From Neolewinella lacunae (GTDB lineage: Bacteria > Bacteroidota > Bacteroidia > Chitinophagales > Saprospiraceae): DNA of 64,000 nt. Shown here piece by piece: positions 7,802 to 34,717 of the stretch. The number at the start of each line of letters is the position of its first letter. Position 1 is the first letter of the stretch. The translations under genes and the position numbers were made by a program. The DNA lies in assembly GCF_014349155.1 (NCBI RefSeq), contig NZ_JACSIT010000100.1, positions 124,001-188,000 of the forward strand. Direction: 5' to 3'. The notes below the pieces were generated by a model. That model made no database searches. It saw only the letters and a list, made by a program, of their open reading frames with translations, and was not told where the DNA came from.

Positions 7802-10048
7802 TTACCTTCGCACCACGATTCGTTCAACAATCCGGGTGGATAAATCGGCTCCACGAAGTTCGAGGAGATAGGTCCCGCTGGCCAGGTGATTCACTTCAAT
7901 TAAGGAACTGTTTTTTCCACTGAAAAGAAGTTGTCCTTGCAAACTATACAGCCTTGCCTCGAAATCCAGGTTCCCTTCCACCACAATGTGTAGCTCCGCT
8001 GCCACAGGGTTGGGGAAAATGCTGATAACAGCATTCTCGACCTCATAAGTAGAGGTACTGAGACTGTCTAATCCATTACAATCTTCGTCAATCCCATTGT
8101 CCGGTATGTCTACGGCCGCTGGATTAATGTTTGGGTTGATCTCATCGCAGTCTTCTACCAGGACGAAGCCATCTTGATCCAGGTCGTCGTCAAAAGTCGT
8201 CGCGTCACAGTCGTCATCCAATCCGTTGTAGGCCGTCTCCGTTTGGCCGGGATTTACGGCGGGGTTGATGTCGTCGCAGTCTTCGGCCAAGACGAAGCCG
8301 TCCTGGTCCAGGTCGTCATCAAAGGTCATCGCGTCACAGTCGTCATCCAAGCCATTGTATGGGATCTCCATTTGGCCGGGATTTACGGCGGGGTTGATGT
8401 CGTCGCAGTCTTCGGCCAAGACGAAGCCGTCCTGGTCCAGGTCGTCATCAAAGGTCATCGCGTCACAGTCGTCATCCAAGCCATTGTATGGGATCTCCAT
8501 TTGGCCGGGATTTACGGCGGGGTTGATGTCGTCGCAGTCTTCGGCCAAGACGAAGCCATCCTGGTCCAGGTCGTCATCGAGCGTCATCGGATCGCAGTCG
8601 TCATCCAGTCCATTGTAGGGGATCTCCATTTGACCGGGATTGATAGCGGGGTTGAGGTCGTCGCAGTCCACATCGGCGGTAAACCCATCATTGTCCTCAT
8701 CGATGGGTTGGCTGATCAAATCTATGATGTAGGGTTCATATCCAGTTGCATCGGTCTGGGCAAAGCAAAATAATTTGCCGTCGAAGAGGTAAAGAGAGGT
8801 AGGTCTTGATTGGCCTTCTGGGTTAATGTTAATTTCAAAAGTATTGGCGGCAGTTCCATCGGAAACCCAGATCTCCTGAGCGAAGGATCTGCCCGCATTC
8901 AGGTAAATGAAATTGGTGTCCGCCACAATTTCGCTGGGCAAGGCAAAGCCCGAGCCATTGCTGTTGAAATCCCGAAAAAGAAGGGTGCCAGCTTCGGTCC
9001 CGTCCGAAACGAACAATTCAATATCTGAACTGCCATTATTGCCTTTGTAGTACAGTTTATCTTTAAACACCACCGCATTTTGGGGAGCGTAACCATTTGC
9101 GCCCGGCCAAACATCCTTTACCAGGGTGGTGCCCTGGGCGGTGCCATCGGTCCGCCAGAGTTCATCTCCACTTACTCCGTCGTTGGCGGCAAATAGGATG
9201 GTTCCGTTGACGCGTTCAAAGCGGGGCCCTATCCAATTGAAGGATATTGACTGAAAATCACGTATCTTGAAGGTGCCCGCTCTCGTTCCATTGCTGACCC
9301 AGAGATCCTGATTTTGAATCATCAACATAAAGTTTTCCGTAGAAAACAGTTGACTGGGCTCAAAGCCAAAGAAATCTTCGGGGTCATCGTTCCTCACCAA
9401 TACAGTGCCGGCAGTTGTTCCGTTCGTTCTCCAAAGGCCTTCCCGGCACGAAAAGTAAACTTGATTATTAAAAACTGTGTAAGAATTAGGCAAACTCGAA
9501 CCATTCAGGGAGATGTTTCTCACCAAAACCGTTCCGTTCGGTGTGCCGTCGGTCTTCCACAGTTCGTAGTCGTCGCCGCTGATCCCTGTGAAATAGAGGG
9601 TATTATTAAATACAATGAAGCCCTCCGCAGTGTAGCCATGGTCAACCCAAACACCGTGCGAACTGCCGGGATTAATATCCTTCAATAGGGTGGTTCCCTC
9701 ACTCGTTCCATCGGTCGTCCACCACTCCCGTCCGTGACTGGCGGTCCGGGCCACGAAAACGAGCCTGCCATTGACGATATGCATATGTTGAATCTCTGAG
9801 CCTCCAGAACCTGCGTTGATGTCCCTGACCAGCCGTAATTCGGAGTTTTCATAGACCCAAAGCTCGTCCCCATTGATGCCGTCGTTGGCGGAGAAGAACA
9901 ACTTGTCCTGAAAATAAATAGAGACATTGTCCTTGAAGGTGGCCGAATTTCCGGTCCCTTGGTTAATGTCGGCGATTAGGGTAAAGTCTTGGGCGGGCAG
10001 GTGGCTAACCAGGGTTGCTAAAAGGAGCGCAAAGTAAAATTTTCTCAT
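7802..10048 (-). CDS. Secreted ELWxxDGTxxGT/MopE-repeat protein with T9SS sorting domain
   Basis: A 748-residue protein. The start at 10048 (MRKFYFALLLATL) gives a clear signal peptide cut near SHLPAQ; the frame is open further upstream but lacks a signal. Residues 20-480 contain at least eight ELWxxDGTxxGT-type repeats (such as YELWKTDGTPNGT). Residues 490-670 carry five calcium-binding-like repeats of the MopE type (DxDGF, DCDD, NPGQ, YNGLDDDCD), three nearly identical at DNA level. Residues 675-748 form a type A T9SS C-terminal domain (ISIFPNPV). It is probably exported across the outer membrane and anchored or released there. Confidence 0.9.
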   Translation of the reverse strand: MRKFYFALLLATLVSHLPAQDFTLIADINQGTGNSATFKDNVSIYFQDKLFFSANDGINGDELWVYENSELRLVRDINAGSGGSEIQHMHIVNGRLVFVARTASHGREWWTTDGTSEGTTLLKDINPGSSHGVWVDHGYTAEGFIVFNNTLYFTGISGDDYELWKTDGTPNGTVLVRNISLNGSSLPNSYTVFNNQVYFSCREGLWRTNGTTAGTVLVRNDDPEDFFGFEPSQLFSTENFMLMIQNQDLWVSNGTRAGTFKIRDFQSISFNWIGPRFERVNGTILFAANDGVSGDELWRTDGTAQGTTLVKDVWPGANGYAPQNAVVFKDKLYYKGNNGSSDIELFVSDGTEAGTLLFRDFNSNGSGFALPSEIVADTNFIYLNAGRSFAQEIWVSDGTAANTFEININPEGQSRPTSLYLFDGKLFCFAQTDATGYEPYIIDLISQPIDEDNDGFTADVDCDDLNPAINPGQMEIPYNGLDDDCDPMTLDDDLDQDGFVLAEDCDDINPAVNPGQMEIPYNGLDDDCDAMTFDDDLDQDGFVLAEDCDDINPAVNPGQMEIPYNGLDDDCDAMTFDDDLDQDGFVLAEDCDDINPAVNPGQTETAYNGLDDDCDATTFDDDLDQDGFVLVEDCDEINPNINPAAVDIPDNGIDEDCNGLDSLSTSTYEVENAVISIFPNPVAAELHIVVEGNLDFEARLYSLQGQLLFSGKNSSLIEVNHLASGTYLLELRGADLSTRIVERIVVRR
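8152..8660. repeat. 129-bp intragenic tandem repeat encoding MopE-type units
   Basis: The same CTTCGGCCAAG landmark recurs at 8281, 8410 and 8539, an exact 129-base (43-residue) period. Flanking units are more diverged. Each unit encodes one DQDGF..DCDD..NPGQ..DDDCD metal-binding-like repeat. Confidence 0.92.
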
Positions 10049-10221
10049 GTTTATTCCTTGAGAGCTGGATAAGGTTGGTGCAAGATGAAAGGCTGAAGTA
10101 AGCCATTCTTCGCGGTAAAGATAGTTTGCTTTGGCAATTGTGCAAATGCAGCGGGAGGGAAGTTGGTACAGGTAAAAATCACCTTTCCCCGCGTATCCCC
10201 AACACGACCACGCCTCCCCAG

Positions 10222-10252
10222 CTCCTCCCCCTTTGGGGGTTGGGGGGCGTCC
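10222..10252. repeat. Solo GC-rich hairpin next to NotI motif
   Basis: A CCCCCTTTGGGGG core is followed by TTGGGGGGC, the same architecture as the ends of the DUF559 element in metH. It lies 8 bases before a NotI-motif copy. Confidence 0.6.
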
Positions 10253-10259
10253 CTGCATT

Positions 10260-10277
10260 GCACCTGCGGCCGCGCCC
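10260..10277 (+). repeat. Dispersed NotI-motif repeat, copy 2
   Basis: GCACCTGCGGCCGCGCCC, a perfect copy in reverse orientation to copy 1, located between the ELW-repeat gene and the hydrolase stop. Confidence 0.9.
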
Positions 10278-10292
10278 AAATTAAAAATCCGC

Positions 10293-11500: not shown

Positions 11501-13210
11501 ATGAAACAACCCATACTATTCCTGTTCCTGCTTTCCTTCCTGCTCAGCACCCTGGTACCGCTGAAGGCCCAGCAAGAGTCTATCCAAAATTTTGTGGCCA
11601 ACCTGGTCGTCTCCCCCGATGGATCGGTGGAAGTGACCGAAGAGATCACCGTGGTGGCTACAGGAGACCAGATCAAACGCGGCATCACCCGCGCGCTGCA
11701 CCGTAAACCGATTGGCGACGATGTTCGGGATATGGACCGCTTCACTTACGAGGTGCTTTCCGTGAGCCGCAACGGACAATCGATCGACCACACCGCCAAA
11801 AACGAGGGCGGCAACCGCGTCCATTACCTCGGCGACAAAGACACCAAAATCCCGCCGGGAACCTACACTTTTCGCTTCCGCTACCGCAGTCCCCACCAGA
11901 TCTATTTTACGGATATGGTCGATGAAATTCGCTGGCCGTTGATTGGCATCGATAACCAGTTGCCCGTGGCCCAGGCTTCCATCACCGTACAGTTCCCCGG
12001 CGGTACCCAACTGCTGAACAGCGCCTGTTACACCGGCCCCGAAGGCTCGCGGGCGTCCGACTGCCGGGTGGAGCAGGGCGGCAACGCCACTACCTTCACC
12101 CTCGGCCGCCCCCTGACACCGAAGGAAGGTATGACCGTTTCCGTGGGGGTGCCCCGCGGCACTTTTGTGCGCCCCACGCCACCGCCGCCGCCCACGCCCC
12201 TACAACGCAATGGCACGCTTTGGGCCTGTATCTTCGGCCTGTTGGCGGGCTTGTACTACGGTTACGACAGCTGGAAAAAGCATGGCGTTGACCCCATTGG
12301 TCCGCCGGTCGCACCCCGCTTTACGCCGCCCGCCGACTTGTCTCCCGCCGCCGTCAGTTTCGTCAGCCTCGGCATCCCCCACCAGCCGCAGGTGACGGCT
12401 TCGCTAACGGACCTGGCGATCAAGGGCTACATCGTCATTAAAGAGGTCGAAAAGCCTGGCTTTCTCGGCATTGGCACCAAGGAAATGTTCGTCATTCACC
12501 GCGGCGACCGTCCCGCCCGGCAGGCGGAAATGCACCCCGAGCAATTTGTCCTCTACGGGAAACTCTTCTCCCAAGGCGACACCGTTGAACTGGACGGCAC
12601 CTACAACAAGGAACTCAACGCCGCTACCGAAGCCCACGGTAAAACCCTGAAAAACCGCCACGGAGATTTCGTCAAGGACGGTGCCAATGGCAAGTACACG
12701 CTCCCGCTGCTGGGCATCTTTGCCCTCACCCTCCTCGGGGCCATTCCTTTCCTCAGCAAAGCCAGCGGAGCGGGCATTGCAGTTTTCGTAACCACGGTAG
12801 TGCTGTTCATCGCCGGCATGATCTTTCACCTCTGGCTCATCCGCAAGCCCAGCCTGGCCAAAGTCATTACCCTGGGCGAGATCAAGGGAATGCGCCAGTA
12901 TTTCAAACTGAAGGAAAAGGAACGCCGCAGTTTGCCCGGTGCGCCGCCCATGACAGAGGCCCATTTCCAGGAGCTGCTGCCCTACGCCATCGCCCTGGGC
13001 GAAAACAACAATTGGGCGGCGGATTTGGCGACCGACTGGGCCAACTCCAGCACCCGCTCCCAGCACCATTACCCATATTACCTCCCCAATTTCTCGCAGC
13101 GGCTGGGCAATTCCTACCAGTCAACGGCCTACCAGGCTTCCTCGGGCGGTGGCGGCTACTCCGGCGGCGGCGGCTCGGTGGGCGGCGGCGGCGGAACGGG
13201 CGGCTTTTAG
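11501..13210 (+). CDS. DUF2207 domain membrane protein
   Basis: A 569-residue protein with an N-terminal signal peptide ending near KAQQES, a beta-rich DUF2207 domain (residues 25-235, with [14 protein letters not shown] and [18 protein letters not shown]), one membrane segment near 245, a cytoplasmic mid-domain ([16 protein letters not shown]), two more membrane segments near 410-450, and a Gly-rich tail ([10 protein letters not shown]). Members of this family, such as YciQ-like proteins, are integral membrane proteins of unknown role. Its TAG stop overlaps the convergent metH stop by three or four bases. Confidence 0.9.
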
Positions 13211-16200
13211 CGGATGGGCCCCAGCCACTGTTCGGCGGTTGCTTCGTCCCAACCCTTGCGGGCGGCGTATTCGGCGGCCTGGTCGTCCTGGATGCCGCGC
13301 ACGGTAAAGTACTTGGCCGCAGGATGGCTGTAGTACCAGCCGCTCACGCTCGACGCGGGGTGCATGGCCATGCTTTCCGTCAGTTCCATGCCGGTGTTTC
13401 TTTCCACGTCCAGGAGTTCCCAAAGCTTGCTTTTTTCGGTGTGCTCGGGGCAGGCGGGGTAGCCCGGTGCGGGGCGGATGCCCTGGTATTCTTCGGCGAT
13501 GAGTTGCTCGTTAGAGATGGCCTCGTCGGGCGCGTAGCCCCAGAATTCGCGGCGCACCCGCTGGTGCATCCGTTCGGCAAAGGCTTCGGCCAGTCGGTCG
13601 GCCAGGGCCTTGAGCATGATGGCGCTGTAGTCGTCGCCGTCCGCTTCAAAGCGCGCCACGTGGGCCTCGATCCCGAAGCCGGTGGAGACGGCAAAAGCCC
13701 CGAGGTAGTCCTGGCGGGCGGTACCGTTGGGCGCGGCCGCAGGTGCAATGAAGTCGGTTAAAGCAAGGTTCGGCTGGCCAGCGGCTTTCTTGCTCTGCTG
13801 CCGAAGTTGCAGCAAGGGGTAAGTCTTCCCTTCCGGCGTCTGTACGTGGATGGTATCGGTGTGGACGTCGCTCTCCGCCGGGAAAAAGCCGATGACGGCC
13901 TTGGCACCCAGCCATTTTTCGGCGACAACCTTCTCCAGCATTTCCCTTGCCTCGGCGTAGAGGTTGCTGGCTTCGACGCCGACCACTTCGTCCGTCAGGA
14001 TGTCCGGGAATTTCCCCGCCAGTCCCCAGCTGCTGAAGAAGGGCGTCCAGTCGATGTAGTCCACCAGTTCTCCCAGGTCGTAGTTGGCAAACACGCGCGT
14101 ACCCGTGAAGGTGGGCACCGGCGGCGTGTAATTGTCCCAGTCGAGCACCAGGTGATTTTCCCGCGCCTGGCTGATGCTGAGGTTTTGTTTTCCGGATTGT
14201 TGCCGGGCGCGGTGAACGCGTACGCGGTCGTATTCGGCGGTGATGCTTTGGCGGTAGGCCTCCCGGTCTGCGGCCTCGCCATCCAGCAGTTTTCCGGCTA
14301 CGGTCACCGCACGGCTGGCGTCGAGGACGTGGACGGTGGGGCCACCCCGGTAGGCAGGCTCCACTTTCAAAGCCGTATGGGTTTTGCTGGTGGTGGCCCC
14401 GCCAATGAGCAGGGGAGTAGTCATGCCCCGGCGCTCCATCTCGGCGGCGACGTTGACCATCTCGTCCAGCGAAGGCGTAATGAGCCCACTCAGGCCAATG
14501 ATGTCGACCTTGTGCTTTTGCGCTTCATCCAGAATCTTGTTGGCCGGTACCATTACGCCCAGGTCAATGATGCGGTAATTGTTGCAGGCCAGGACCACCC
14601 CTACGATGTTTTTGCCGATGTCGTGGACGTCGCCTTTGACGGTGGCCAGGAGGATGGTGCCTTTGTACTGGCGGGCGAGAATGTCCTTCTCGGCCACCTC
14701 AGCAACGGGTGTTAAGAGTGTTGTATCAGGTAATTTTATACCTTGATTAGAAGGACGATCCGCTAGAGCCATTTCCCTCTCCCCCGGCCCCTCTCCAAAG
14801 GAGAGGGGTGACCCATCGAGTAAACTTCTATCTTGATTTGAAGGATAATACACCTCCGTAGGGTAAGGATACTCCCGGTCTTTGCGGGCATCAAGAGTAG
14901 ATTTGATTTTTGCCGATACTGTAAAAGGGTCGTTCAGAATCGCTTCATTGGTAAATCGCAAAACTTCATAACCAACTGACCGGAATTTAGCGCTTCGTAC
15001 TTCATCACTCCAAATCATTTCGGGAGTGTTGTGATATCCACCATCCACTTCAATGATCACTTTCTTTTGGATACATACGAAGTCTGGGACACTATAGCCC
15101 ATTGGTTTTTGTCGGACAATTTTATGCCCGGTCTTTTGAGACTGAAGATGTTGCCAAAGCATCTTCTCCGCAGTGGTCTGGTTACGCCGCAGTTTTTTCG
15201 CGTACCCTAATATGGCTTGGAAATGTTTATCAGGAATGTCCCAATAGTTTTCACTGACGACAGGAATGCTCTCCTCGTCGCTAGAATGCACTGAAGTCAG
15301 GTCACCCCTCTCCTTTGGAGAGGGGCCGGGGGAGAGGGATTCATCCGTCGCTGGAACGCTTTCCTGATTATTCGAAAGTAGTCTCGGTTGATCTCCTTTT
15401 TCTGGAGAACTGCGTTGGGAAATGGCCGCCAAAACATCCGCCTTCTCCTGCTCAATAAACGGCTGCAGGTAAGCCACGGCCTGCTTCATTACCCGGGCCG
15501 ACTTCACCACCTGGGGCAAAAACATTTTGCCGGATCCGAAGAGATCGCCCACTACGTTCATGCCGTCCATCAGCGGGCCTTCAATGACGTGCAGGGGGCG
15601 GGGGTACTTCAGGCGGGCTTCTTCAGTGTCTTCAACGATGAACTCGGTAATCCCCCGCACCAGGCTGTGGCGCAGCCTTTCTTCTACGGTGGATTCCCGC
15701 CAGGCCAGGTCTTTGACGACCGAGCGCCCGCCGACGTTTTTGAGGCTTTCGGCCAGTTCCGTGAGGCGCTCGGTGGCGTCAGGACGACGGTTGAGGATGA
15801 CGTCTTCTACGTGGGTGAGGAGTTGAGAGGGGATGTCTTGATAGACCTCGATCATGCCAGCGTTGACGATGCCCATGTCCATCCCCGCCCGGATGGCGTG
15901 GTAGAGGAAAGCAGAGTGCATTGCTTCGCGTACCACGTCATTCCCCCGGAAGCTGAAGCTCACGTTGGAGACCCCGCCACTGATTTTTACGCCCGGGCAG
16001 AGGGTCTTGATGCGTTGGGTCGCTTCGATGAAGTCTACTCCGTAGTTGTTGTGCTCCTCGATGCCGGTGGCGACGGCAAAGATGTTGGGGTCGAAGATGA
16101 TGTCTTGGGGCGGGAAGCCAATTTCCTCCGTCAGCAGGCGGTAAGCCCGGTGGCAGATTTCGACTTTCCGGTCGGCAGTATCGGCCTGTCCTTCTTCGTC

Positions 16201-17649
16201 GAAGGCCATCACGACGGCTGCTGCGCCGTAGGCTTTAACCAGGCGGGCCTGGCGGAGAAATTCTGCTTCGCCCTCCTTCATGGAGATGGAATTGACGATG
16301 CACTTGCCCTGGACGCACTGCAGGCCGGCCTCAATCACGTCCCACTTCGAGGAGTCGATCATGACGGGCAGCCTGGCAATGTCGGGCTCGGCCATCATCA
16401 GGTTGAGGAAGGTGACCATGGCCTCTTTGGAGTTGAGGAGGCCTTCGTCCATATTGACATCAATGACCTGAGCTCCGCCTTCCACCTGGTCACGGGCCAC
16501 GTCGAGGGCTTCGCTGTATTTGCCGTCCATGATCAGGCGGCTGAATTTCCGGGAGCCCGTGACGTTGGTGCGTTCGCCGACGTTGATGAAGTTGGTTTCC
16601 GGCCGGACGATCAGGGGTTCGAGGCCGCTGTACTGGGCGTAGGGGGGCAGGGTAGGGATTTGCCGGGGGGGGAGGCCCGCTACGGCCAGCGCCATTTGCC
16701 GGATGTGCTCGGGCGTTGTCCCGCAGCAACCGCCGATGAGGTTGACGAATCCGCTGGCGGCGAAGTCGCGGATGTAGCCCTGCATTTCCTCTGCGCCTTG
16801 GTCGTAAGCTCCCAGTTCATTGGGGAGGCCGGCGTTGGGGTAGGCGTGGACGTTGCACTCGGCGATTTTGCTGAGGGCGGCCAGGTGGGTGCGCATCTCC
16901 TGGGCTCCGAGGGCGCAGTTGAGCCCGACGCAGAGGGGCTTGGCGTGGGCCACGGAGATGTAGAAGGCTTCGACGGTCTGGCCGGAAAGCGTCCGCCCGC
17001 TGGCGTCGGTGATGGTGCCGGAAATCATCACGGGCAAGGCACGGCCCAAAGCCTGCCGCACCCGCTCGAGGGCGAAGAGGGCCGCCTTGGCGTTGAGGGT
17101 ATCGAAGATGGTTTCGATGAGAATGAGGTCCGCACCGCCGTCGGCCAGGCCGCGGATCTGCGTCGCATAGGCATCGGCCAGCTGGGGGAAGGTGATGGCG
17201 CGGTAGCCCGGGTCGTTGACGTCGGGGCTGATGCTCAGCGTCCGGTTGGTGGGCCCCACGGCACCGGCCACGAAGCGGGGCTTGGTGGGGTTGCGGGCGG
17301 TGAATTTATCAGCGGCCTCCCGGGCGACGCGGGCGGCGGCAACGTTGAGCTCGTAGACGATGTGCTCGGTGCCGTAATCTTCCTGGGCGATGCTGGTGCC
17401 GCTGAAGGTGTTGGTTTCGATGACGTCGGCCCCGGCTTCCAGGTAAGCCTCGTGAATTTCGCGGATGACGTCGGGGCGGGTGAGCACGAGCAAGTCGTGG
17501 TTGCCTTTCAGGTCCTTGGGATGGTCTTCGAAGTAGCCGTGGCGGTAGTCGGCCTCGGTTAAGCCGTACCCCTGGATGAGGCTACCCATTGCGCCGTCGA
17601 GGACCAGGATGCGTTCACGGAAAAGCTGATCAAGGGGCGTAGTAGACAT
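13207..17649 (-). CDS. metH: Cobalamin-dependent methionine synthase MetH with an inserted DUF559 domain
   Basis: A 1480-residue protein, about 250 longer than the usual 1230. It transfers methyl from methyl-tetrahydrofolate to homocysteine through cobalamin. Domains in order: homocysteine-binding (residues 5-330; zinc ligands C245, C308, C309), pterin-binding (350-640), cobalamin cap (650-735), the insertion (about 740-990), cobalamin Rossmann domain (995-1130; D1007-x-H1009-xx-G1012) and activation domain (about 1150-1470; [12 protein letters not shown] motif). All catalytic motifs are present and the frame is open throughout, so the enzyme is probably functional. The activation domain also holds a NotI-motif copy encoding APAAAPN (13729-13746). 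TATCTTTG at about 17672-17679 is a good -7 box. Confidence 0.95.
13729..13746 (-). repeat. Dispersed NotI-motif repeat, copy 3 (inside metH)
   Basis: A perfect GGGCGCGGCCGCAGGTGC inside the metH activation domain, read in frame as AGAAAPN on the coding strand (APAAAPN with flanks). Confidence 0.85.
14775..14812. repeat. Inverted repeat arm A of the DUF559 element
   Basis: Thirty-eight bases, starting CCCTCTCCCCCGG and ending GAGAGGGGTGAC; the exact reverse complement of 15301-15338. Confidence 0.95.
15301..15338. repeat. Inverted repeat arm B of the DUF559 element
   Basis: Exact reverse complement of 14775-14812. Translated in the metH frame it gives [14 protein letters not shown]. Confidence 0.95.
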
Positions 17650-17787
17650 GCAATCTCTTTTGAAGGGCGCGCAAAGATAAGCGCTTTACGCCTCCGGGGA
17701 AGGTTTTGCGGGGGCGTTGGACAAAAAGATGACGGGTAAGGGGAGGGGCCGGGCGGGGTCCTCCCTTGCTCCTTTCCGACGAGGCTG

Positions 17788-33451: not shown

Positions 33452-33452
33452 C
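33413..33452. repeat. CATTCACG octamer repeat
   Basis: About five CATTCACG / CATTCGCT units. Matching GTGAATGC-type units occur next to the left arm at 31840-31860. Confidence 0.8.
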
Positions 33453-34717
33453 TAATAAAGCAAATACCGCTCCCGCAACACCCGGTACTCCGCCAGGCCC
33501 GGCTGCCAGCTGGCGCGGATTTCAGCGGCGCTCTGGCCCGCCAGGATCTGGAGGCGCAGCTGATCGGTACCCGCCAGAAGATCGAAGAAATCGGGACGGG
33601 AGAAGAAGGTTACCCCGGCACTCTCCAAAGCCCGGTAGGTGTTGATGAGGCGATCCAGGTCGAGCTGGCCGGTGCCGCGGGCCTGGGCTAGGGAGAGATG
33701 GGTGAGGTCTTCGCCGCGGCAGCGTTCGCCATTGAGGGGAGGATCCTGGCTGCCCGGACCCGGGGTGGGGGTGAAATAGTAGTCGCCAAAGGGTAGGGCG
33801 GGGTGGCCGTAGACCTGGAACTGTTTGCTGGTGCCCCGGCCGACGGATACTGGCGTCCCCTCAAAAAAGCAGAGGCTGGGGTAAAGGTAAATGCTGCGCT
33901 GGTTGGGCAGGTTGGGAGAGGGTGGAATGGGCAGTTCGTAGATGCGGTCGTGGGCGTAATCGGGCATCTTCACCACGGAAAGCTTCACCCGCAAGCCTTC
34001 GGGCAACCAGCCTTCTCCGTTGACCAGTTGCGCGAATTCACCCACCGTCAGGCCGTGGGCGACGGGAATAGGGACGATCCCCACGAAACTCTGAAAGGCG
34101 GTATCCAGCACGGGACCGTCGATCAGGTGGCCATTGGGATTGGGGCGGTCTAAGACCACGACCGTTTTGCCGTAGCGGGCGGCCGCCTCCATGACGTAAT
34201 AAAGGGTCGAGATGTAGGTGTAAAAGCGGGCCCCGACGTCCTGGATGTCAAATACGATCACGTCGATGTCGGCCAGGTCGGCAGCGGAAGGTTTTTTCGT
34301 TTTGCCGTAGAGGGATTTGATGGGCAGGCCGGAGCGGCTGTCGCGGCCATCGCTGATCTGGGCCCCGGCGTCGGCACTGCCCCGGAAGCCGTGCTCGGGG
34401 GCGAAGATGCGGCGAACGTCCTGGTCCATCGCCAGCAAGGTATCCACCAGGTGGCTATTTGCGACGGTGGAGGTTTGGTTTACGACCAAGGCGAGGCGTT
34501 GGCCAGTCAGGAGGGGAAGGTAGCTTTCGGGGAAATAAGCGGCGGGCAGCGGAGCGACGGTGTCCGACATCCCCTGCTCCTCTGTCCATACTCCCCCCTT
34601 TGGGGGGTCGGGGGGGAGCACCTGCGGCCGCGCCCCAGCACCCGCAGAATTGTCGGAATTACCACAATTTGCGGCAATTGCCACCAAAAAACTAAAAAAA
34701 AGGACTACCTTGGCCAT
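33452..34717 (-). CDS. namZ: Exo-beta-N-acetylmuramidase NamZ (DUF1343)
   Basis: A 421-residue exported protein with a signal peptide (MAKVVLFFSFLVAIAANCGN; the Cys may be lipidated). The DUF1343 core follows: ALVVNQTSTV near 77, FAPEHGFRG near 105, DIQDVGARFYTY near 158 and LDRPNPNG near 190. NamZ of Tannerella forsythia removes N-acetylmuramic acid from peptidoglycan fragments, so a role in cell-wall recycling is likely. Residues 26-45 (AGAGARPQVL, then PPDPPKGG) are encoded by a NotI motif plus a CCCCTTTGGGG hairpin and sit just after the signal. Confidence 0.9.
   Translation of the reverse strand: MAKVVLFFSFLVAIAANCGNSDNSAGAGARPQVLPPDPPKGGVWTEEQGMSDTVAPLPAAYFPESYLPLLTGQRLALVVNQTSTVANSHLVDTLLAMDQDVRRIFAPEHGFRGSADAGAQISDGRDSRSGLPIKSLYGKTKKPSAADLADIDVIVFDIQDVGARFYTYISTLYYVMEAAARYGKTVVVLDRPNPNGHLIDGPVLDTAFQSFVGIVPIPVAHGLTVGEFAQLVNGEGWLPEGLRVKLSVVKMPDYAHDRIYELPIPPSPNLPNQRSIYLYPSLCFFEGTPVSVGRGTSKQFQVYGHPALPFGDYYFTPTPGPGSQDPPLNGERCRGEDLTHLSLAQARGTGQLDLDRLINTYRALESAGVTFFSRPDFFDLLAGTDQLRLQILAGQSAAEIRASWQPGLAEYRVLRERYLLY
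34589..34617. repeat. Solo GC-rich hairpin inside namZ
   Basis: CTCCCCCCTTTGGGGGGTCG followed by a G-run, the same architecture as the DUF559 element ends, directly abutting a NotI motif. Confidence 0.65.
34618..34635 (+). repeat. Dispersed NotI-motif repeat inside namZ
   Basis: A perfect GCACCTGCGGCCGCGCCC. On the coding strand it reads GAAAGA-like residues just after the signal peptide (AGAGARPQV). Confidence 0.85.

Follow-up and report, generated by a model that had tools for sequence, protein, structure and literature searches.

The metH gene for cobalamin-dependent methionine synthase of Neolewinella lacunae carries, within its own reading frame, a DUF559 nuclease gene enclosed by two perfect inverted repeats, and the metH genes of its genus acquired such elements repeatedly and independently. 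We consider it probable that the element is an inverted-repeat-bounded nuclease of the EDxHD type, carried unspliced as an extra domain of essential enzymes. With somewhat less assurance, we propose that such elements form a class of mobile protein domains that are not spliced out, i.e., inverted-repeat-bounded EDxHD nucleases which in this genus lie only inside host genes, mostly those of essential enzymes, would be expressed in the host frame, and would recurrently invade the same tolerant loops across Bacteroidota (equivalent loops in the editing domains of LeuRS, ValRS, and IleRS, the MetH linker, and RecG).

In the window, the whole 64,000-nucleotide stretch of DNA that was analyzed, metH occupies 13207-17649 on the minus strand and encodes 1480 aa in a single open frame spanning the insert. 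The Pfam domain order of the product is B12-binding_2 (residues 655-728), DUF559 (PF04480, residues 815-919), and B12-binding (998-1092), with DUF559 matched at 93.8 bits versus a curated cut-off of 20.6, which bears out the sequence-only reading of metH as interrupted in frame by a DUF559 element. The extra residues, delimited by linker comparison and lower GC content, lie where the cobalamin cap gives way to the Rossmann domain (14680..15432, minus strand). From LFGSGK to DIGKN the linker measures 312 residues versus 66-90 in 13 DUF559-free MetH proteins of the same genus, and therefore about 220-245 residues are extra; the earlier reading had named the linker site and put the excess at about 250 residues. 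Relative to empty linkers, some extra residues also lie beyond the arms. The GC content is 43-46% in segments of 14700-15299 versus about 58-68% elsewhere in metH, in agreement with the claim of an AT-richer insert.

The arms of the element form a 40-nt inverted repeat with 100% complementarity, which extends the perfect 38-bp repeat first described by a single base on either side. In metH orientation, the 5' arm (15300..15339, minus strand) encodes 13 residues and is a REP-like unit with an inner palindrome at 15305-15325, and the 3' arm, its exact reverse complement (14774..14813, plus strand), contributes 12 residues in the metH frame and has its inner palindrome at 14788-14808. With up to three mismatches allowed, the 22 outermost bases of the arm were found at just two sites in the window, namely the two arms themselves (mean of 100 shuffles, 0.00). 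Between the 5' arm and the nuclease lies a linker (15208..15299, minus strand) with the motif YW of the genus family (ENYWDIP), which contains no ATG upstream of the nuclease domain and one GTG/TTG codon; between the nuclease and the 3' arm, a second linker (14814..14892, minus strand) contains the motif R-P-x-x-Y/F-P, common to most genus copies.

The nuclease domain (14893..15207, minus strand; 99.3 bits) contains D856, E867, D869, and H873 (MetH numbering), which we take to be the catalytic residues of the DUF559 family. All four were kept in 76/76 embedded copies examined, with ten positions invariant, an invariance that is partly built in since the copies were found with a profile; the first three residues had been named in the sequence-only reading. 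An AlphaFold2 model of the window nuclease (pLDDT 83, pTM 0.80) gave as best PDB matches in Foldseek 3hrl, a DUF559-type protein, then the catalytic domain of I-Bth0305I (3r3p), an enzyme located in a group I intron, and Vsr (1vsr) with a weak E value. Sequence matches were 3hrl (E 3.8e-26) and I-Bth0305I 3r3p (E 2.4e-4). In the 10 of 20 pairs that had measurable dS, dN/dS was 0.05-0.14, the remaining pairs being saturated, which indicates that the embedded nuclease evolves in frame under purifying selection. No match was obtained in PADLOC, and a reading as a defense system was set aside.

In this genus, the nuclease is probably translated only within the host protein, because the 40 codons upstream of the domain lack an ATG in 9/13 genus copies, the window copy included, and contain one in 4, though they include a GTG or TTG in 10/13. 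In an AlphaFold2 model of a MetH fragment with the insert, the nuclease core had block means of 76-97 and both linkers fell below 50; the MetH part was modeled poorly (mean pLDDT 63, pTM 0.38), so the model says only that the nuclease would fold independently.

The intein end models TIGR01443 and TIGR01445 had no match in MetH at E ≤ 0.01, as expected from the claim that intein splice motifs are lacking, whereas a control DnaE copy matched both, the C-end with 25.6 bits (above cut-off) and the N-end with 24.0 bits versus a cut-off of 24.5. The models were also absent among the families listed for 19 other insert regions from 10 further host kinds (the best 25 families for RecG and Acs), and the DnaE insert region, run alongside as a control, matched the C-end model. 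For metH alone, self-splicing intron RNA was sought in 13200-17700, with no Rfam match up to E 1, and an intron at metH was rejected for this reason. The genome contains one MetH and no MetE match (completeness 99.36). Likewise, the interrupted LeuRS was the only LeuRS above cut-off in 8/8 genomes tested (completeness 80-100), and the interrupted IleRS the only IleRS in 2/2 (completeness 99 and 88). Because neither a spare copy nor intein end models were found, we infer that the host enzymes function with the nuclease domain in place, and splicing appears to be absent, as judged by the lack of known motifs.

To establish whether sites were filled or empty, the MetH linkers of 26 relatives and the window were compared, one of them (G023) being unmatched by the linker motifs. 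The linker was readable in 19/21 genus genomes, of which 6 contained DUF559 (235-312 residues), 12 had a short linker (66-89 residues), and one, G015, had a linker of 90 residues with a lone arm-type palindrome and without a nuclease; G003 and G018 had no MetH match across the linker region. In seven genomes outside the genus, the linker measured 58-62 residues. Empty sites, for which an alignment of close relatives had been suggested, are thus represented by the 12 short linkers, and related MetH proteins do not all share one linker devoid of repeats. The edges of the insert vary among species in length and sequence. The same metH arrangement was present in further assemblies, including those of the isolates Neolewinella maritima and Lewinella sp. 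IMCC34191.

On a 22-row host tree built from the N part of MetH, the nearest neighbor was empty for 3/6 filled species (G014/G007, G001/G006, and G008/G011), the insert label required 6 changes, and a single clade was rejected (p-AU 4e-58). The nuclease tree rejected a common clade both for the six metH copies (p-AU 0.005) and for G000, G014, and G005, three close species (p 0.008), although the majority of its inner forks are unresolved and copy-to-copy gene conversion could scramble it too. A single ancestral insertion into metH was ruled out by the two trees together. The pattern at the linker is patchy, of homing type (6/19 readable genus genomes filled), and co-converted flanks were absent at metH, the near-minus-far identity being 0.056 in filled-filled, 0.048 in filled-empty, and 0.052 in empty-empty comparisons.

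The genome of N. lacunae has two DUF559 copies, one in metH and one in a DnaE intein, the latter likewise flanked by inverted palindromes. DUF559 was matched in 27/60 relatives searched. Within the Neolewinella/Lewinella group (21 genomes), all 13 strong matches (E under 1e-25) were in frame within host genes, namely, metH (6), ileS (2), murE (2, one truncated where its contig stops), murC (1), a metallophosphoesterase-like gene assigned by eye that carries a fused peroxidase-like domain (1), and the DnaE intein (1); an additional weak match in G020 with a different architecture was excluded from the 13. Class-wide, DUF559 was present in 118/295 genomes at 1e-15, and 71 of the 150 matches listed lay in open frames no shorter than 350 aa, 60 of which were retrieved for examination and 11 stand outside the counts. 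A scan of named genomes, whose records partially overlap the class set, placed 52/80 loci (the best 80 of 521) in frames of 350 aa or more.

Against NCBIfam, 15 of 20 host proteins scored above the curated cut-off of a host family (MurC, MurE, two IleRS, LeuRS, ValRS, MetRS, RecG, RecJ, Acs, MutS, TsaD, HisF, a DEXH helicase, and the peroxidase-like part) and five below it (IcmF, CoA-transferase, PurQ-like, RluA-like, and RecB/AddA-like). Further hosts, named by eye, were a SpoIIE-type phosphatase, HsdR, HemE, and SpoIID. DUF559 was terminal rather than internal in the HisF, RluA, HemE, and PurQ-like hosts. A motif-based site table of 128 rows, which includes at least five duplicates (L226=L103, L227=L102, L228=L087, L229=L093, and L248=L154), two of them within the MetH-linker count, assigned 24 sites to the editing domain and 13 to TTMPG of LeuRS, 10 to the linker, 6 to the activation domain, and 2 to the region before the folate domain of MetH, 6 to VWFDSG and 2 to the editing domain of IleRS, 4 to the editing domain of ValRS, 8 to RecG, 4 to Acs, 2 to RecJ, 2 to singles, and 45 to "other." Positions recurred in the LeuRS editing domain before TTRPDT, in LeuRS before TTMPGWAGSSW, in RecG after DEQHRFG, and in the MetH linker. 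In LeuRS, ValRS, and IleRS, the sites within the editing domain all precede one Thr-rich motif and are presumably homologous positions; some other sites adjoin IleRS VWFDSG and RecG DEQH, which we take to be catalytic motifs.

Site labels clustered on the nuclease tree (43 changes versus 76.8 in shuffles). The metH copy of G000 was the sister of the metallophosphoesterase copy of G019 (100/89), in a tree whose label "ileS" pools IleRS and LeuRS, which the site table separates. The genus ileS elements formed a separate nuclease clade with a separate palindrome (CCCCCAAAGGGGG), and G014 has both kinds. In five multi-copy genomes, the nearest identity among 21 further copies was 47-61% save for one tandem pair at 95%, so that, beyond this pair, no recent amplification of the nuclease was seen among them. 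Two individual loci stood apart. An IleRS at L268:4215-8540 contains two DUF559 insertions, the second of which is in frame, has its active-site His replaced, and looks decayed. In a LeuRS with DUF559 (L312, genome G115), the parts lie in three frames, with frame shifts on both sides of the insert, due to either sequencing error or a broken or decaying host.

The arm is a REP-like unit with the core palindrome CCCCTCTCC-nnn-GGAGAGGGG. Palindromes of the N. lacunae genome share an asymmetric unit consisting of TCCCTCTCCC[CT]CGG, then the core palindrome, usually followed by TGACC. A genome search for arm copies with or without DUF559, as had been suggested, found 41 palindromes at up to two mismatches. 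Four of these border the two DUF559 copies, one falls by chance in a frame that resembles UvrA by eye, and 36 are without DUF559. The arms are thus paired, as the sequence-only reading had it, and at the same time not unique to the ends of the element, each being itself a repeat unit. None of the 36 DUF559-free palindromes lay more than 40 aa inside a frame of over 180 aa. Per genus genome, 0 to 97 palindromes were counted, and the reversed control gave 0 in 21/21. Strong DUF559 matches occurred in 9/15 genus genomes with four or more palindromes and in 0/6 with at most one, the elements' own arms being included in the counts; G002 (24) and G013 (31) are rich in palindromes without DUF559.

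Inverted arms with a score of at least 18 were present in 11/13 genus elements; of the other two, one has only a short pair of palindromes and one is truncated by its contig. The loop triplet varies among elements and was identical in both arms for 6/10 main-clade elements (AAA, ACA, AGG, GGA, TCG, and GGG). Arms within one element matched each other, the score reaching at least 18 in 27/74 embedded copies versus 35/584 mismatched flank pairs. Scores under 18 were obtained for 47/74 embedded copies, 20/21 copies of the five multi-copy genomes, 5/7 free copies of relatives, and 5/26 named free copies; inverted arms correspondingly flanked 21/26 named free copies, 2/7 in relatives, and 1/21 in the multi-copy genomes. 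This test excludes 2/28 non-embedded named loci (L238 and L251), three too-short loci of relatives, and L046 (hemE copy). A direct repeat of at least 5 nt, sought as a target-site duplication, was found in 1/26 strong-arm elements, compared to 7.9% of mismatched pairs, and since there is no target-site duplication, a DDE transposase mechanism is unlikely. RAYT-like Y1 transposases (L196-L225) are encoded in 20/21 genus genomes; none of the 30 retrieved RAYT loci had a palindrome within about 1.5 kb, and in the four loci examined, the inverted repeats that surround the gene or lie close to it differ in sequence from these palindromes. RAYT was consequently rejected as the mover of the palindromes.

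In the mechanism that we favor, two inverted REP-like arms enclosing an EDxHD/Vsr-type nuclease gene (DUF559) would form an element of 566 bp that inserted into the metH reading frame and would be translated as an independently folding domain on flexible linkers rich in Pro, Gly, and Ser. The host enzyme would stay functional, and the protein unspliced, because the arms encode flexible loops, and the survivors would be open, in-frame insertions at tolerant loops only. Made within the host protein, the nuclease would thereby borrow the expression of an essential gene and be hard to lose by imprecise deletion. It would drive its own spread by cutting the arms (as hairpins or cruciforms) or empty target genes, whereupon repair would copy the element in. 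Repeated in-frame acquisition and then selection on the nuclease is the step that was observed; nuclease cutting, movement of the element, and its selfish spread are suggested by the pattern, i.e., the fold, the paired arms, the lack of RAYT at the palindromes, and the coupling of palindromes with DUF559.

A possible but doubtful alternative is homing without splicing, in which the nuclease would recognize conserved coding DNA of empty alleles and spread horizontally at fixed sites, the arms being secondary. The fold of the I-Bth0305I catalytic domain, the recurrence of sites across families and their clustering on the nuclease tree (43 versus 76.8 changes), and the doubly occupied IleRS (L268), where damage to the active site of the second element recalls a homing cycle, would suit it; however, the MetH-linker copies are not one clade, hosts switch within a lineage (metH in G000 and metallophosphoesterase in G019), and metH lacks a co-conversion signal. 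A reading in which mobility belongs to the palindromes and some other enzyme moves them, with DUF559 as a passenger or repair nuclease among them, is unlikely. Something else may indeed move them, since they are numerous in DUF559-free genomes such as G002 and G013, and the 36 DUF559-free palindromes of N. lacunae and the lone palindrome in the G015 linker agree with this; but RAYT loci are free of them (0/30), inverted arms flank DUF559 in most genus copies (11/13) and named free copies (21/26), though far fewer of the other free copies (2/7 and 1/21), and strong DUF559 is missing from all six palindrome-poor genus genomes and present in 9/15 others, own arms counted. Domestication to the benefit of the host, for example as a nuclease for damaged or mismatched DNA that is anchored on abundant enzymes, is quite unlikely given the patchiness among sister species and the spread over unrelated hosts, although the strong purifying selection speaks for it, as does the link of VsrA of Caulobacter, a DUF559 protein, to the DNA-damage response in the accessible part of its description (PMC12907096).

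Of the two outcomes offered by the sequence-only reading, a selfish nuclease tolerated inside an essential enzyme is favored over removal at the RNA or protein level because of the empty sites, the purifying selection in frame, the lack of an intein end model in MetH, and the lack of an Rfam match. Removal by an unrecognized mechanism is improbable: the position of some sites next to presumed catalytic motifs (IleRS VWFDSG and RecG DEQH) and the copy inside the DnaE intein speak for it, but intein end models are absent from MetH and among the families listed for the 19 other regions, metH has no Rfam match, and insert edges differ between species. An assembly artifact or chance can be practically discounted; the window assembly consists of 154 contigs, yet independent genomes, those of the isolates N. 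maritima and Lewinella sp. IMCC34191 included, repeat the arrangement and therefore contradict it.

No description of in-frame DUF559 elements of this kind was found in the open-access literature, subscription papers being mostly outside the search. The nearest precedents are Rickettsia palindromic elements (RPEs), inteins, and the insertion in phage ShiLan. RPEs, as presented in the accessible portions of two papers, are palindromic repeats of about 150 bp that encode a conserved peptide and are translated in frame in host genes (PMC10969869, PMC3733652), as are the palindromes of the metH element. Here, in another phylum, palindromes enclose a nuclease as its two arms, whereas those portions mention no nuclease for RPEs, and solo palindromes of N. 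lacunae do not lie deep within long frames; the likeness drawn here concerns arrangement. Inteins are described, in the part of the source available, as placing a nuclease in frame inside conserved genes with a patchy distribution and recurrent sites (PMC2814812). The present elements share the homing-type nuclease (here of EDxHD fold) in the host frame, the patchiness, and the recurrent sites, and one DUF559 lies in a DnaE intein, but splicing blocks were found neither in MetH nor among the families listed for the 19 other regions, the ends are inverted-repeat arms, and several sites are variable linkers.

The ShiLan insertion in a phage DNA methylase is, according to the accessible text, open in the host frame, predicted to be unspliced, and equipped with a homing-type endonuclease of intein-like distribution (PMC11855218). 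It differs, by the same text, in having an HNH nuclease in another frame and a methylase that its authors call not essential, whereas in the present elements the nuclease shares the frame of the host, the ends are inverted repeats, and the hosts are essential bacterial enzymes. A DUF559 gene is assigned to EDxHD in the available part of one source (PMC9403480). I-Bth0305I and, weakly, Vsr are kin of the metH-insert nuclease in fold and sequence; a long multi-domain DNA-binding structure belongs to I-Bth0305I, as far as the accessible description goes (PMC3943268), and is a point of difference. The excerpt on VsrA also ties this protein to predicted mismatch repair (PMC12907096). REP/RAYT systems and TIRtrons resemble the present case in that REP-like palindromes flank a nuclease-type gene and solo copies are scattered, judging by the accessible text (PMC3733652), but here no Y1 transposase locus has these palindromes (0/30) and the four RAYT loci have other repeats.

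Several consequences would follow if this reading is true. To our knowledge, selfish nucleases have been thought to need splicing, as inteins or introns, for essential genes, or else to stay intergenic. The nucleases described here seem to live unspliced in LeuRS, IleRS, MetH, RecG, and others, selection appears to keep them intact, and the tested genomes have no spare enzyme. They would represent a further route for parasitic DNA into essential genes and a natural source of enzyme domain insertions. The loops that tolerate them would make up a catalogue of use to protein engineering, and the insertions would also give rise to odd annotations. DUF559, a large family of "unknown function," would gain a testable role.

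Further features were observed in the same genome. In the DnaE (PolIII alpha) gene on contig C121 (L003:4720-10485), the palindrome-flanked DUF559 and further palindrome repeats lie between the intein splicing blocks. Beside dnaE, a reverse transcriptase frame lies between two formylglycine-enzyme-like frames (L003:10259-13719, by eye), possibly a diversity-generating retroelement. A second palindrome family, of the CCCCCnAAGGGGG type, has 116 forward and 125 reverse copies in the genome versus 2 and 1 in the control; with more than 100 such palindromes, the genome yielded no ileS-type DUF559 in the DUF559 profile search. Two copies fall in the window, at 10227-10239 and 34594-34606, a number within chance for the window alone, and the copy at 34594 falls in the N-terminal part of the frame 33452-34717 (minus strand). 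At 7802-10279 (minus strand), the window encodes a protein in which four Asp-rich repeats (DLDQDGFVLAEDCDDINPAVNPGQ) are almost identical and the C-terminal tail looks, by eye, like a sorting signal.
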